Assembly: GCA_018662225.1 (NCBI GenBank)
Contig: JABJGO010000066.1
Location: 62,001-126,000, forward strand
DNA: 64,000 nucleotides
Source: Rhodospirillales bacterium
GTDB lineage: Bacteria; Pseudomonadota; Alphaproteobacteria; Rhodospirillales; Casp-alpha2
Direction: 5' to 3'
The notes beneath the pieces were generated by a model. The model made no database searches, was not told where the DNA came from, and saw nothing but the letters and a program-made list of their open reading frames with translations. The first letter of the stretch is position 1; each line of letters opens with the position of its first letter. The translations under genes and the position numbers were made by a program. Shown here in pieces: positions 50,369 through 64,000 of this stretch.

Positions 50369-51223
50369 ATGCCAGAATTACCTGAAGTTGAAACCGTCCG
50401 TCGAGGCCTGATCCCCATCATGGAAGGGCAGGTGCTTTCCCGTGTGGTGGCGCGCCGTCCTGATTTACGGTTCCCAATCCCCGATGGTTTCGGTCAGCAG
50501 TTAACAGGGCGTCGGGTGGTCAGGTTAGATCGCCGGGCCAAGTACCTGTTAATTCATTTCGATAGCGGGGTAGTGCTGATCTGGCATCTGGGCATGTCTG
50601 GTCGCGTGTTGATATTTGAGCGCGACCCGCCGCCTGAAGAAAAGCACGATCATATTATTTTTGAGACGGAATCCGGTGCCGTGGTGCGCTTCAATGATAC
50701 TCGGCGGTACGGCTTTGTGGATCTGGTCGACGGGGACGCGCTGGACACTTATCCCATGATCGCCAAGTTGGGCCCGGAGCCGTTGGATGACAGTTTTGAT
50801 GGGGCCGCCCTGGCCCTGCGTCTGAAGAACCGAAAGACGCCGATCAAGGCCGCATTGCTGGATCAGTCTGTGGTGGCGGGGCTGGGAAACATCTATGTAT
50901 CCGAGGCTCTTCACCGTGCGGGCATCTCGCCGCGCCGGTTGGCCGGTACGGTTCAGGGTGGGCGGGCCGTCAAATTAATCGTCGCCATTAAACAGGTGCT
51001 GCGGGATGCCATCGCCGCTGGCGGATCATCCTTGCGCGACCACCGTCAACCCAATGGGGAGCTGGGTTATTTCCAGCACAGCTTTGTGGTCTATGACCGT
51101 GCCGGTCAGCCGTGCCCCCGTTGTGATCATGGTGGTGATCATGGTGGTGATTGTGGCGGTGTGATCCAACAAATCGTTCAATCGGGCCGCTCCACATTCT
51201 TTTGTTCGGCCTGTCAGCGTTGA
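50369..51223 (+). CDS. mutM: Formamidopyrimidine-DNA glycosylase MutM
   Basis: Removes 8-oxoguanine and formamidopyrimidines from DNA and cuts the abasic site. The catalytic N-terminus MPELPEVETVRRG (Pro2, Glu3) is exact, RRAKYLLIHF gives the conserved Lys near 58, and SVVAGLGNIYVSEALHRAGI is the helix-two-turns-helix. The C-terminal zinc finger starts CPRC and ends STFFCSACQR, but a 12-base triplication inserts DHGGDHGGDCGG after the first Cys pair where the family has only one or two residues. The finger would have an enlarged, His/Asp-rich loop with an extra Cys. Confidence 0.95.
   Translation: MPELPEVETVRRGLIPIMEGQVLSRVVARRPDLRFPIPDGFGQQLTGRRVVRLDRRAKYLLIHFDSGVVLIWHLGMSGRVLIFERDPPPEEKHDHIIFETESGAVVRFNDTRRYGFVDLVDGDALDTYPMIAKLGPEPLDDSFDGAALALRLKNRKTPIKAALLDQSVVAGLGNIYVSEALHRAGISPRRLAGTVQGGRAVKLIVAIKQVLRDAIAAGGSSLRDHRQPNGELGYFQHSFVVYDRAGQPCPRCDHGGDHGGDCGGVIQQIVQSGRSTFFCSACQR
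51125..51160 (+). repeat. 12-base tandem triplication in the mutM zinc-finger region
   Basis: Two perfect copies of GATCATGGTGGT (51125-51136, 51137-51148) are followed by a diverged third copy GATTGTGGCGGT (51149-51160). They encode DHGG, DHGG and DCGG within the zinc-finger loop. Confidence 0.88.
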
Positions 51224-51264
51224 TTACTCGTGCAAAGCCGGGTTTACAGCGATATACAGTCAGT

Positions 51265-51657
51265 ATGATTTCAATTCGCCTGCGCTCTGTACTTTATGCT
51301 GTCGTGATCGTCGTTTTGGCGGTTGCTGCACGGCCCGGTATGGCCCAGGAACTGAGCTTCCTCAGCGGCATTGATGATCTGCCCCTTATGCCGGGCCTGC
51401 TGGAACAGACAGATTTAACTCTGGTATTTGATTCAGCCGAGGGCCGGTACGTCGAGGCCTATGCCACGGGAAACGTAACTGAGTTGACGGTCTCGCAGTT
51501 TTATCAACAAAGCCTGCCACAACTGGGCTGGCTGCATGATGGTTTGGTCACGTACCAACGTGATGGCGAGATTCTAATTATTCTGTCATCCCCATCGCCT
51601 GATGGTAGTAGTGCAACCACTGTTCGGTTTGCCCTCTCGCCACAAAACAGCAATTAG
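51265..51657 (+). CDS. Small exported protein of unknown function
   Basis: A 130-residue protein with a clear signal peptide ([20 protein letters not shown], cut before QELSF). The mature part of about 100 residues contains [20 protein letters not shown] and [15 protein letters not shown], resembling small periplasmic proteins of alphaproteobacteria that lie between mutM and an enoyl-CoA hydratase. No enzyme motif or cysteine pair is seen. The start ATG is 41 bases after mutM. Confidence 0.75.
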
Positions 51658-51691
51658 ACCAACCTCATTCCAACACGGAGAACCGTCCCGA

Positions 51692-52462
51692 ATGTATAAT
51701 ACCATCTTGAGCGAAACCCGTGATGCGGTTGGCCTGATAACCCTGAGCCGCCCTGACGCCCTTAATGCCCTTAATGCTGAACTGCTTTCTGAGCTTGGCG
51801 ATGCGCTGGATGCCTTTTCGAGCGATGATGCGATCCGCGCCATTGTGATTACGGGCAGCGAAAAAGCCTTTGCCGCCGGTGCCGACATCAAGGAAATGAT
51901 GAACCTCTCCTATATGGACGCCTACAAGGTTGATCTGCTGCCTAACTGGGACCGCATGCAGGCGTGCCGCAAACCTGTTATCGCGGCGGTGGCCGGGTTT
52001 GCACTGGGCGGTGGGTGTGAACTGGCCATGCAGTGTGACTTTATTATTGCTGCCGATACCGCCCAGTTCGGCCAACCAGAAATCAAGCTCGGCATCATTC
52101 CGGGCGGTGGCGGCACCCAGCGCCTGACCAGTTTGGTGGGAAAATCCAAGGCCATGGAGATGTGCCTGACTGGACGCATGATGGGTGCCGAAGAAGCGGA
52201 GCGTGCTGGGTTGGTCAGCCGCATCGTACCCGCCGCGAGCCTTTTGGACGACGCCCTCGCCACGGCGGCGACTATTGCTGCGAAGTCCCAGCCGATCGCC
52301 ATGATGGCCAAGGAGGCGGTAAACACGGCGCTTGAGACGTCATTGAGTAAGGGCATTTTCTTCGAAAAACGGCTATTTCAAGCCACTTTTGCTACCGAAG
52401 ATCAAAAAGAAGGCATGGCTGCATTCAACGAAAAGCGGAAACCCGACTTTAAACATAAGTGA
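51692..52462 (+). CDS. Enoyl-CoA hydratase
   Basis: Crotonase-family enzyme hydrating trans-2-enoyl-CoA in beta-oxidation or amino acid breakdown. The oxyanion-hole segments [12 protein letters not shown] near 64-75 and [15 protein letters not shown] near 104-118 are present. Both catalytic glutamates of true hydratases can be placed: the Glu in GCELA and the Glu-centred [19 protein letters not shown]. At 256 residues it matches short-chain ECH. It starts 34 bases after the preceding small gene; an in-frame GTG or ATG further upstream would overlap that gene. Confidence 0.93.
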
Positions 52463-56308: not shown

Positions 56309-59957
<3,649 letters not shown>

Positions 59958-60003
59958 TTTGGGGTGTCGTTTGCTGTTTCGGCTTTCCGGAAATCACACG
60001 ATG

Positions 60004-61344
60004 TTATTGGGGTTGGGAAGCCTTAACCCCCTTATAATCAGCTAGAAGATCGGCCACTTCTTTTCTTCTTGGATAGAAGAACGCCGTGTAAGCCATATCA
60101 TCTTTCAGAATGTGACTGTACCACCAGTCCAGCAGCGCGTTGGCTACGACGTTGCTACGCCAATCATCCGTTGTCTCGAGAGGGGAAGCCAAGATGGTCT
60201 CCATCCAATGCCGAAATTCATCATGCTTGGCAAGGTGAGCTGTATAATCCGGGTAATTCATCCGTTTCATGACGAATTCTTCAGAGGCGAGATGAATATC
60301 TATGTAGGGAACCAGTGTATTCAGGATATACCCTTTCACCTCCAGTGGTTCACCATTTTCTATCGCGCCCTGCAGTTCTTCAATGAGACCCAGCAACGCA
60401 ATATGGTCGGCGTCCCACTTCTCTATGCCAATACTCATTGAGGGTAACCAGGGGCCTATTTTTCCTGACTCGGTTTTAGGGGTCTCGGTTATTTCCAAAC
60501 TCTCTATGTCGGTTGGGACGAGGGAAAAGCTTGCTACCGTTCCCTTTCCCTTTTCACTATGTATCGTAAACTTCCCACCCTGGAGCTCTGCAAAGTGATT
60601 GCACAAAGAAAGTCCCAGGCCTGTCCCTTCATGAGAGCGACCTTTTTCCCGCTCTATCTGTACAAACGGTTCAAGCGATCTTTTTTGTTCTTCACGGGAC
60701 ATTCCGATCCCGGTATCAATGACATTGACGACGACTTCCCTTCCGCTCATTAAAACTCGAACCGTTACTGAACCACCCGCAGAGGAAAACTTGACGGCAT
60801 TTGTCAGAAGGTTGACCAGGATCTGTTTGGTTATCATCCTATCGGCTTTAACCTCCAGCGATTCTGAAGGAAACTCCGTGGCAATCGATATCTGTTGACT
60901 GTTGGCCCTTATCTTGATCATCGCCAGCACTTCTTTGATTACATCTGACAGTCGAAAATCTTCAATAAAGACCGTATGTTTTCCGGCCTCAATTTTCGAC
61001 ATATCAAGAACCTGGTTAATCAGCGCAAGAAGGTGGTTTCCGCTCTCGTTAATATCATCCGCATAGTCCTGGTATTTGGAAGGGCTCACAGGCCCATGTA
61101 TCTGATATTTTATCATATCAGAGAATCCAATTATCGCGTTGAGTGGTGTTCGTAATTCGTGACTCATGGTCGACAGAAAGTCTGATTTGGCCCGGTTCGC
61201 GCGATCCGCGTCGGATAAGGCCGTTTGCAATTCAATTTGACCTTTCCGTATGCGTGAAAGAATGATCAAAATAATTATCAGTCCAATTATTGAGACCCCT
61301 GACACGATCGTAGCAATAATAATATTTTCGTTTCGCTCTTCCAT
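60004..61344 (-). CDS. Histidine kinase with C-terminal bacteriohemerythrin domain (downstream part of a split gene)
   Basis: Residues 8-30 form a transmembrane helix. HisKA has its phospho-acceptor His62 in MSHELRTPLNAI. HATPase_c follows with the N box NLLTNAVKF (179-187), G1 VIDTGIGMS and G2 GTGLGLSLC (240-248). Residues about 300-425 are a complete bacteriohemerythrin: the di-iron ligands His314, His351, Glu355, His370, His374, His411 and Asp416 are all present in the canonical spacing. Such domains bind oxygen or nitric oxide. No receiver domain or response regulator gene is nearby. The frame lacks a good ribosome-binding site and its N-terminus fits as the second membrane helix of the upstream sensor frame. 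Confidence 0.88.
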   Translation of the reverse strand: MEERNENIIIATIVSGVSIIGLIIILIILSRIRKGQIELQTALSDADRANRAKSDFLSTMSHELRTPLNAIIGFSDMIKYQIHGPVSPSKYQDYADDINESGNHLLALINQVLDMSKIEAGKHTVFIEDFRLSDVIKEVLAMIKIRANSQQISIATEFPSESLEVKADRMITKQILVNLLTNAVKFSSAGGSVTVRVLMSGREVVVNVIDTGIGMSREEQKRSLEPFVQIEREKGRSHEGTGLGLSLCNHFAELQGGKFTIHSEKGKGTVASFSLVPTDIESLEITETPKTESGKIGPWLPSMSIGIEKWDADHIALLGLIEELQGAIENGEPLEVKGYILNTLVPYIDIHLASEEFVMKRMNYPDYTAHLAKHDEFRHWMETILASPLETTDDWRSNVVANALLDWWYSHILKDDMAYTAFFYPRRKEVADLLADYKGVKASQPQ

Positions 61345-61880
61345 CCTTGCTGCCAGAACGGCGTGCTCATACTCAGCACAGCCCCAATACCGTCAGTCGT
61401 TAGTGGAATTTGAGATAAAACGAACGCCTCTATTTCCTGCCCGGCAGCAACCAGTTCGTCGACTCTGGACCTGGTCGTGTCATTCCCGTACCGGTCCTCT
61501 AATATTTGCAAGGATTGGATTGCATGCCCTGAAACATACAAGGTGTCCTCGACCACCTGAATGATACCTGAGTACCTTGACTGGAGCTCTAGATCGCCCG
61601 GACGCATTTCAGCCAGTATCTGGGAATTCAAGAAATTCGACACCTTTTCGTAGGTTATCGAAACTTCTGCGACAACCTCACTTGACCATTCTCCAGCCGC
61701 GAGGTGGTAATCATTGATTAGAATATTCCGCCATTCGTCGGAATTGTACCGCCAGATCAACCCGGTTATGACGACCCCTGCCGTCAAAACCATGATCCCG
61801 ATCAGAAAAAATATATACTGGGATAAAGTAAATTCGGTTCTTGAGGGGGCATCGTCATCCGATTCTACTAAGGCCTCCAT
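61287..61880 (-). CDS. Membrane sensor region of the same histidine kinase (upstream part, frame broken)
   Basis: The 197-residue frame has a charged cytoplasmic start, one transmembrane helix (about 22-44: YIFFLIGIMVLTAGVVITGL) and a mainly helical periplasmic region of about 140 residues. After residue 166 the sequence turns improbable (ending LLLLRSCQGSQ), while the neighbouring -1 frame gives a natural join GCAEYEHAVLAARM into the kinase. Adding one G to the GGGG run (plus-strand CCCC, 61382-61385) would fuse both into a single 625-residue sensor kinase. It may be a real frameshift mutation or a sequence error. The ATG directly follows the stop of the PhnD-like gene. Confidence 0.75.
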   Translation of the reverse strand: MEALVESDDDAPSRTEFTLSQYIFFLIGIMVLTAGVVITGLIWRYNSDEWRNILINDYHLAAGEWSSEVVAEVSITYEKVSNFLNSQILAEMRPGDLELQSRYSGIIQVVEDTLYVSGHAIQSLQILEDRYGNDTTRSRVDELVAAGQEIEAFVLSQIPLTTDGIGAVLSMSTPFWQQGWKSETKILLLLRSCQGSQ

Positions 61881-62765
61881 CTAAAGCATTCCCAGACTCT
61901 CGGCGATGGTTGATAGTTCTTGAAAGTCATCCAGACTGGCTGGCAAGAACCCCCCGGCATGGAGTTTGTTCAGTATTGCGGTATCGGGCTCGTCAGTGGG
62001 AGATAATTGAAGGAAGGCCTGTATCAAGGAATTTCGGACTTCGGCGCCCAGGCCCTTGTTGGCCGCCCACACATAATCCGGGTAAGGCGGCGTCTTCCAG
62101 ATAATCTGTACGTTGGTCTTTGACAATTGCCCATCAGAAAACATGGAATCAATAATCGAGGCGTTAGCGACGCCAAGATCAACCATGCCATCGCGAACTA
62201 GAAACCCGGTTTTGTCATGCGCGCCAGAGAACTTAATTTCCGAAAAATACGTTTCTGGAACGATGCCTTTAGTTTGGAGAAAATGCCTGGGCATAAGATG
62301 TCCGGACGTGGATAGCTTCGCTCCAAAGGCCAAGCGTTGGCCCTTGAAATCGTGTATCGTTTTTTCTATACGATCTGATCGTGCCAGAAAATAGCTCCGA
62401 AAACGAAGGTCCGTATCACGCATAACCATTGGAGCAGCACCAAGCTGTTTGTGTGCCTTAAGGAACGTCAAACCGCCGAAATAGGCGATATCAACCTGAT
62501 TCTGACTAAATAATTCAAGAAGGTGGCTATAGCTCTTGGGCACGACTAATTCAGTTTTCAAGCCAACGGCGCTTTCCAGGTGTTGAAAAAGTGGAAGGTA
62601 ACGTTCACGCAATTTAGCCTCTGTCTCATCAGGAAGGACGCCGATTCGAATCATTGTCGGTCGTTCTGATTTTTGCTGATCGAGAATGTCCATTGGATTA
62701 AGGATCAGAACCAATCCGATGGATAAACATAGGATCATCAACGCAAGTAGCATTCGTTTTGTCAT
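61881..62765 (-). CDS. PhnD/SsuA/transferrin family periplasmic binding protein
   Basis: A 294-residue solute-binding-type protein. The N-terminal hydrophobic segment (about 4-23) is a signal peptide or anchor with no clear cleavage site. The mature domain begins TMIRIGVLPDETEAKLRERY and contains SHLLELFSQNQVDIAYFGGL, the PhnD-like pocket region, then LAFGAKLSTSGHLMPRHFL and VRDGMVDLGVANAS. No ABC permease or ATPase gene is adjacent. Instead it abuts the sensor kinase gene with no gap, so it is more likely a ligand-sensing partner of the kinase than a transport component. The ligand (phosphonate, phosphite or another oxyanion) is unknown. Confidence 0.87.
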   Translation of the reverse strand: MTKRMLLALMILCLSIGLVLILNPMDILDQQKSERPTMIRIGVLPDETEAKLRERYLPLFQHLESAVGLKTELVVPKSYSHLLELFSQNQVDIAYFGGLTFLKAHKQLGAAPMVMRDTDLRFRSYFLARSDRIEKTIHDFKGQRLAFGAKLSTSGHLMPRHFLQTKGIVPETYFSEIKFSGAHDKTGFLVRDGMVDLGVANASIIDSMFSDGQLSKTNVQIIWKTPPYPDYVWAANKGLGAEVRNSLIQAFLQLSPTDEPDTAILNKLHAGGFLPASLDDFQELSTIAESLGML

Positions 62766-63011
62766 ATGGCGTGCCTCAAACAGCAGAGTTTCTCAACAAT
62801 GGGCAGGCGCCTACTCTGAGGAATATTGCGTCGACCGGGTAACTCTTTGAATTATATGTGAGTGTTATAGTATGCATATTCAAGAGATTTGTAAAATACC
62901 CGCTGCTTTTATCTGAATTCCTCAACACCACCATACCGAAATTGCCCGAGCGTGAGCTATATTGCCGTCGTTCTTAACCCATTTATAAGTCCCATCCCTT
63001 TATTGTAGGCC
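62766..63011. promoter_or_regulatory. Divergent intergenic region between the PhnD-like gene and the PBP gene
   Basis: The 246-base gap separates two divergent genes and is AT-rich around 62845-62895. On the minus strand a TATAAT can be read at about 62851-62856; on the plus strand TTGAAT and TAGTAT occur 15 bases apart. No assignment is firm. No further gene is seen. Confidence 0.35.
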
Positions 63012-64000
63012 ATGGAAAAGTCACGAAAATCTGGGGCCAAACCGGTCTCGCGGCGAAAAACGGGACCCAGGCCTGCAAGTAACCGAGCACGGGCCAAAAA
63101 ACCGGCTGCTGCGCCGAGTCGCGGTCGATTATCTGGCATGTTTAAAGGTCTGGGACGTGTTGCATCCTTCCTGTTGTATTGGGGTTCTGTTGCGGCCATC
63201 TGGGGCGGTGTTGCTGTCGGCGGCATCTTTGCATTCTATGCCTATGATCTGCCTGATGTTGATGCGGCATTCACGGCTACCCGGCGCCCCGCTGTGACGA
63301 TTCTCGCCGCAGATGGCAGTGAACTTGCCACGGTAGGAGACATGTACGGCATGCCGGTGCAGCTGAACCAGTTGCCGCCGGTTTTATCCCAAGCCATCAT
63401 CGCCACCGAAGACCGCCGTTTTTACAGTCATTTTGGTTTGGACGTGATCGGACTGGCCCGGGCTATGTGGGTTAATGTACAGGCCGGGCGTATTCGTCAG
63501 GGTGGCTCAACCTTAACCCAGCAAGTGGCGAAGAACCTGTTTTTGACGCCCGCTCGCACCATCAAGCGCAAGGTTCAGGAGGTTATGCTCGCGTTGTGGC
63601 TGGAGCATAAATTCACGAAAGATGAGATCCTTACCGTTTATTTGAACCGTATCTATTTAGGTGCTGGTACGTGGGGTGTGGACGCGGCCGCTCGTAAATT
63701 TTTCGGTAAGCCAGCGTCTCAGGTTTCCACGTGGCAGGCCGCCATGATTGCGGGACTGATGAAAGCGCCCAGTCGGTTGAACCCTATCGCCAGCCCTGAG
63801 CGTGCGAGAGCCCGAACGAACATTGTCTTGGGCAATATGGTCGCTGCCGGATACCTGAGCACCGCATCCGCAGACATCGCCCGCCGCGACAAAGGGCGCA
63901 ACGTGCAAACCGCCATGGGTGGCGGCAGCCGTTATTTTGTGGACTGGGTGCTGGAACAGGTGCCCGATTATATCACCCTGGACCGGGACGTGGTGGTCAG
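63012..64000 (+). CDS. Bifunctional penicillin-binding protein, class A (3' end cut by window)
   Basis: Peptidoglycan glycosyltransferase/transpeptidase; only the first 329 codons are inside the window. A very basic cytoplasmic tail (1-40, rich in Lys/Arg/Pro/Ala) precedes a transmembrane helix (about 50-76). The glycosyltransferase-51 domain has catalytic Glu133 in TEDRRFYSHFGLD, then RQGGSTLTQQVAKNLFL and the second motif KDEILTVYLNRIYLG. The transpeptidase domain would lie beyond the edge. The ATG follows an in-frame stop closely, so the start is well defined. It is divergent from the PhnD-like gene. Confidence 0.93.
   Translation, partial: MEKSRKSGAKPVSRRKTGPRPASNRARAKKPAAAPSRGRLSGMFKGLGRVASFLLYWGSVAAIWGGVAVGGIFAFYAYDLPDVDAAFTATRRPAVTILAADGSELATVGDMYGMPVQLNQLPPVLSQAIIATEDRRFYSHFGLDVIGLARAMWVNVQAGRIRQGGSTLTQQVAKNLFLTPARTIKRKVQEVMLALWLEHKFTKDEILTVYLNRIYLGAGTWGVDAAARKFFGKPASQVSTWQAAMIAGLMKAPSRLNPIASPERARARTNIVLGNMVAAGYLSTASADIARRDKGRNVQTAMGGGSRYFVDWVLEQVPDYITLDRDVVV

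Follow-up and report, generated by a model that had tools for sequence, protein, structure and literature searches.

The question raised by this locus is whether the minus strand between 60004 and 61880 of the window, i.e., the whole 64,000-nucleotide stretch of DNA that was analysed, encodes two overlapping proteins or a single sensor kinase whose reading frame has been broken. In the assembled sequence, two minus-strand open reading frames (ORFs), 61287-61880 and 60004-61344, lie in different frames with a 58-base overlap, and the ATG of the first directly abuts the stop codon of a binding-protein gene. The features on which the argument draws are as follows:

61881..62765, minus strand: PhnD-like periplasmic binding protein, 294 aa (Pfam Phosphonate-bd, 206 bits, cut-off 27)
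61287..61880, minus strand: sensor ORF, 197 codons; a membrane helix followed by a helical segment
61383..61880, minus strand: in-frame part of the sensor half, 166 codons
61746..61832, minus strand: membrane helix 1, predicted from hydropathy at sensor residues 17-45
61287..61382, minus strand: end of the sensor ORF that is out of frame (31 codons plus stop)
61327..61392, minus strand: interval bounding the frame change, from the opening of the kinase frame at 61392 and the homology that begins at kinase-ORF residue 7
60004..61344, minus strand: kinase ORF, 446 aa counted from its first ATG; membrane helix, HisKA, HATPase_c and hemerythrin; frame open back to 61392
61234..61332, minus strand: membrane helix 2, predicted from hydropathy at kinase-ORF residues 5-37
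60982..61191, minus strand: HisKA (Pfam, 71.1 bits, cut-off 26.9)
60520..60837, minus strand: HATPase_c (Pfam, 88.1 bits, cut-off 26.4)
60091..60429, minus strand: C-terminal hemerythrin domain (Pfam, 43.2 bits, cut-off 25.3), with ligand positions from alignment to solved bacteriohemerythrins and from motifs

The frame break is confirmed to be real in the assembled sequence, and the ORF coordinates bear out the initial annotation, which had placed the sensor and kinase frames on either side of a GGGG tract (CCCC 61382-61385 on the plus strand). Its fused protein of 625 residues with two membrane helices was likewise reproduced (166 + 13 + 446, with one hydrophobic helix predicted in each half). 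A TGA at 61395-61393 closes the kinase frame upstream, and both frames are open together over about 100 nt (61392-61290). Since the kinase frame opens at 61392 and kinase homology is found from ORF residue 7, the shift must fall within 61392-61327. The longest run in this interval is GGGG at 61385-61382 (minus strand). When codon usage was modelled on 123 long frames from the contig of the window, the optimum for the frame switch fell at 61376, although this optimum is broad, with positions from 61385 to 61361 lying within about 2 units. From the tract to the kinase ATG, the score is +1.56 for the kinase frame vs. −1.74, a difference of only about 3 units over 13 codons, and the sensor tail (61382-61290) scores −5.6, reading as non-coding. 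Of the earlier claim that a single base was lost from the G4 run, a single indel in one gene is supported, while GGGG as the exact site is a reasonable choice that codon usage does not single out.

The position of the G run at or near the break would suit a phase-variable gene in which tract slippage serves as a switch, a possibility raised in the initial annotation. However, the tract is short, there is no long hypermutable repeat, and the only other run of at least three in the interval is AAA. G/C runs of at least four number 234 (200 + 28 + 5 + 1) across the 64-kb window and are thus so common that the GGGG tract is not special, making phase variation a highly improbable explanation.

The kinase half carries the marks of a sensor histidine kinase, with HisKA and HATPase_c above their curated cut-offs and with the phospho-acceptor and ATP-binding motifs present. 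The input half lies in the other frame, and no single polypeptide holds both input domain and kinase as assembled. The iron ligands of the hemerythrin domain were assigned by eye as H314, H351, E355, H370, H374, H411 and D416 of the kinase ORF, matching the published ligand set of five histidines, a glutamate and an aspartate (PMC9388753). Domain and ligand set place the protein among hemerythrin-domain sensors, with a putative response to oxygen or redox state. PADLOC returned one weak kinase match (20.5 bits) over the ATPase region, which was taken as generic, and the kinase search of genome contigs returned two remote kinases that were of no use.

Related genes speak for the two halves belonging together. 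Eight of eight related kinase–hemerythrin genes consist of one unbroken ORF, in which an input region forms the N terminus; these were chosen from match lists for matches spanning kinase and hemerythrin and are not a full count (the paralogue on contig C55 of the same genome, two genes in G177, and one each in G044, G167, G004, G005 and G009; Pfam was run on five). Their input regions consist of PAS, 5TM-5TMR_LYT, GAF plus PAS, or other parts, and none of them shares the sensor half of the window. The fusion of kinase and hemerythrin is thus not unique to the window, several occurring in the order. The closest comparison is with the paralogue (G000:C55:26323-28020; PAS-HisKA-HATPase_c-Hemerythrin), which is 66% identical over query residues 38-446 and, at a GC content of 0.474, is low in GC like the window operon. 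However, it is unbroken, a weak PAS match without a membrane helix replaces the two-helix sensor, and no binding-protein gene was recognised beside it (ORFs of at least 150 aa in the 7 kb read). As a side observation, the C-terminal kinase–hemerythrin module (60091-60429 in the window; L031, L032, L128, L129 and L130 elsewhere) appears as a modular family in the order, preceded by inputs as varied as PAS, 5TM-5TMR_LYT, GAF plus PAS and the two-helix sensor.

Could the two ORFs instead be genuine overlapping genes, one for a membrane-anchored sensor (197 aa) and one for a kinase with an N-out helix (446 aa), acting in complex with the binding protein? Each ORF is intact as assembled, and the kinase ATG lies ahead of a complete helix, flanked by acidic residues on its N-terminal side and basic ones on its C-terminal side, such that the kinase could insert alone. 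Moreover, the GeneTack study (PMC3711429) expects gene overlaps to account for roughly one in three orphan frame transitions. However, the overlap is 58 nt long, the sensor tail reads as non-coding, all of the relatives above are fused, and the Shine–Dalgarno match of the kinase ATG is weak, at −3.0 where 29 long ORFs have a median of −4.6 and 1117 arbitrary ATGs one of −3.7. The start of the kinase ORF right at its membrane helix also speaks for one gene. The fused relatives, the weak Shine–Dalgarno sequence and the non-coding tail therefore favour one gene, and two genuine genes are unlikely. A split that has been kept, with binding protein, separate helical sensor and one-helix hemerythrin kinase assembling as a three-protein receptor, is most unlikely; if true, it would mean that kinase output is set by the translation level of the overlapping second ORF. 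The preferred reading is that of one membrane sensor kinase gene of about 625 residues, very probably disrupted by an indel of recent date or by an error in the consensus. The split separates a membrane helix and its helical segment from a second membrane helix and the kinase.

A programmed ribosomal or transcriptional frameshift would reconcile one gene with two frames by yielding a short and a full product, and the geometry would allow it, as about 100 nt are open in both frames and a −1 shift gives the fused product. However, no X-XXY-YYZ heptamer is seen by inspection at GGT ATT GGG GCT, and transcriptional slippage sites are often runs of eight or longer (PMC3711429), vs. four here. The eight relatives are fused without a shift, though none shares the sensor. 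A programmed shift is very improbable, in agreement with the initial annotation, which had not favoured it.

The age of the break separates a decayed gene from a fresh or apparent lesion. The kinase boxes and the hemerythrin ligand positions are all present, and the 612 codons hold no second lesion. A neutral gene gaining 0.05 indels per substitution should (95%) have acquired another lesion once divergence reached about 1.75%, a figure that ranges from about 1 to 4% with the indel rate assumed. Relative-rate counts against a majority outgroup gave 8 changes for the window copy and 10 for the paralogue. With single outgroups, six of seven comparisons were even, the exception being G005 (7 window-only vs. 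22 paralogue-only changes). The window copy thus shows no excess of private changes relative to the paralogue, from which it differs by an NG86 dN of 0.249 and a saturated dS of 2.55 (0.243 and 1.45 by LWL85). An old pseudogene that looks intact by chance would be in keeping with a low-GC accessory operon and with the existence of a paralogue in the same genome, yet the lack of a second lesion over this length and the balanced counts make it scarcely credible, and of the decay suggested in the initial annotation, a long-standing one is not supported. Taken together, the intact motifs, the lack of a second lesion and the balanced changes indicate that the break is either recent or not real. In the GeneTack study (PMC3711429), frame transitions that do not cluster are put down to errors in sequencing or to indels of recent origin, and some of the orphans to gene overlaps. 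As to the cause, a recent mutation has close to an even chance, and a draft consensus error is a realistic possibility, short of an even chance.

A census by codon usage of same-strand overlapping pairs covered 211.5 kb of the contig, a design in which breaks with a short overlap would be missed. The filter passed 81 pairs, six of them with an upstream tail of at least 40 nt, the sensor–kinase pair among these. It is the only pair with a tail longer than 80 nt and a downstream start beyond the switch, and the clearest candidate break in the census. Breaks of this kind are not abundant in the contig, which gives no independent sign of poor assembly. A second pair among the six (51151-51657 and 51602-52462) was considered and is probably not a break, as the downstream ORF has a later ATG beyond the first stop, which presumably corresponds to where proteins of that family normally begin. 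The frame break itself is ordinary: for an isolated break in a draft genome, unshared by relatives, a recent indel or consensus error is the simplest explanation, which calls for caution.

The setting of the operon (binding protein, then kinase) bears on what its loss would mean. Its GC content is 0.465-0.482, vs. 0.545 for the contig, and it lies between genes that we take to be gyrB-like and penicillin-binding-protein-like (PBP1A-like). In G009 and G006, these flanking genes are about 0.6-0.7 kb apart with the operon absent between them, and in G001, of the same genus, they are separated by about 7 kb holding other genes, again without the operon. In four further genomes with a gyrB match (G007, G015, G018 and G025), the operon and the second flanking gene were both absent from the stretch read, and G002 gave no gyrB match. 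The operon looks like an accessory insertion, so gene loss there would cost little. The interval 59957-63012 varies between relatives and may be a place where genes are often acquired.

If the single indel within 61392-61327 is the only damage to an otherwise intact gene, the intact product would comprise, in order, a helix, a periplasmic helical domain, a second helix, HisKA, HATPase_c and hemerythrin, encoded by the second gene of a two-gene operon after the PhnD-like binding protein. In the intact form, the binding protein, carrying an oxyanion-like ligand, may dock with the helical sensor and thereby switch the kinase, and the cytoplasmic hemerythrin domain may add an oxygen or redox input. 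Such a protein would be a two-input receptor, sensing a periplasmic ligand via the binding protein and oxygen or redox state via hemerythrin. As assembled, the sensor half runs through 31 wrong codons to its stop and the kinase half has no input, so the pathway is probably off.

This arrangement resembles known systems in part. The relatives of the binding protein in the PDB are 7s6g, PtxB, PhnD, ArrX and AioX. In the AioX–AioS, ArrX and ArxX systems, as in the window, a gene for a PhnD-like binding protein adjoins a sensor kinase gene, and AioS is a kinase that works with the periplasmic protein AioX (PMC5908839). However, the arsenic-binding Cys106 of AioX (PMC5908839) has no counterpart in the window binding protein, whose sole Cys is residue 13, in the signal region. 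No ORF of at least 80 aa recognisable as an AioXSR-type response regulator was found between the flanking genes (59957-63012), and the window kinase differs from AioX-type modules in its hemerythrin domain. Among relatives, none of 29 binding-protein loci (L036-L064) had a kinase match within their short flanks. TorS, which works with TorT, also has an all-helical periplasmic domain (PMC8534201); in contrast to its two stacked four-helix bundles, the window sensor is shorter and its model is of low confidence. DcrH, Bhr-DGC and Bhr-HD-GYP resemble the window kinase in using a hemerythrin domain as an oxygen or redox input, a role that is putative in the window, and in DcrH the domain is C-terminal as well (PMC9388753). 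However, the hemerythrin sensors that this review describes as characterised are MCP, c-di-GMP and ATPase proteins, whereas the output in the window is a histidine kinase, and the consulted part of PMC4919030 names MCP and GGDEF fusions as the commonest, a kinase fusion not being among them. A title-level literature search returned no paper title on this combination. The sensor is an unusual combination of known parts, and its architecture is mildly interesting.

No relative carrying the sensor half was found. Searches matched 1 of 317 genomes of the order and 1 of 385 of the class, and among 398 genomes of the phylum only the window itself matched at E ≤ 0.001. Genus, plasmid, PDB, Pfam, NCBIfam and PADLOC searches gave nothing usable: no Pfam domain exceeded its cut-off in the sensor ORF, and no sequence relation to solved structures was found in the PDB. 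No homologue spanning the sensor–kinase join was found in the order, class or phylum genomes searched, which is where the one-gene reading is weakest. One match on the same contig as the window (C32:206741, E 0.001) was dropped because its ORF looks unrelated. Weak matches in the phylum search (E 0.003-0.1) came from 21 other genomes. The structure model of the sensor half, with a mean pLDDT of 52.8, predicts an all-helical fold at low confidence.

Three further hemerythrin matches with long frames (L131, L132 and L133) were set aside as relatives of the kinase–hemerythrin module, since it is the hemerythrin portion that they match and none has a notable match to a kinase domain. Two of them, L131 (2287-4638) and L132 (3950-6271), encode long acidic proteins in two genomes, each with two hemerythrin-like stretches.
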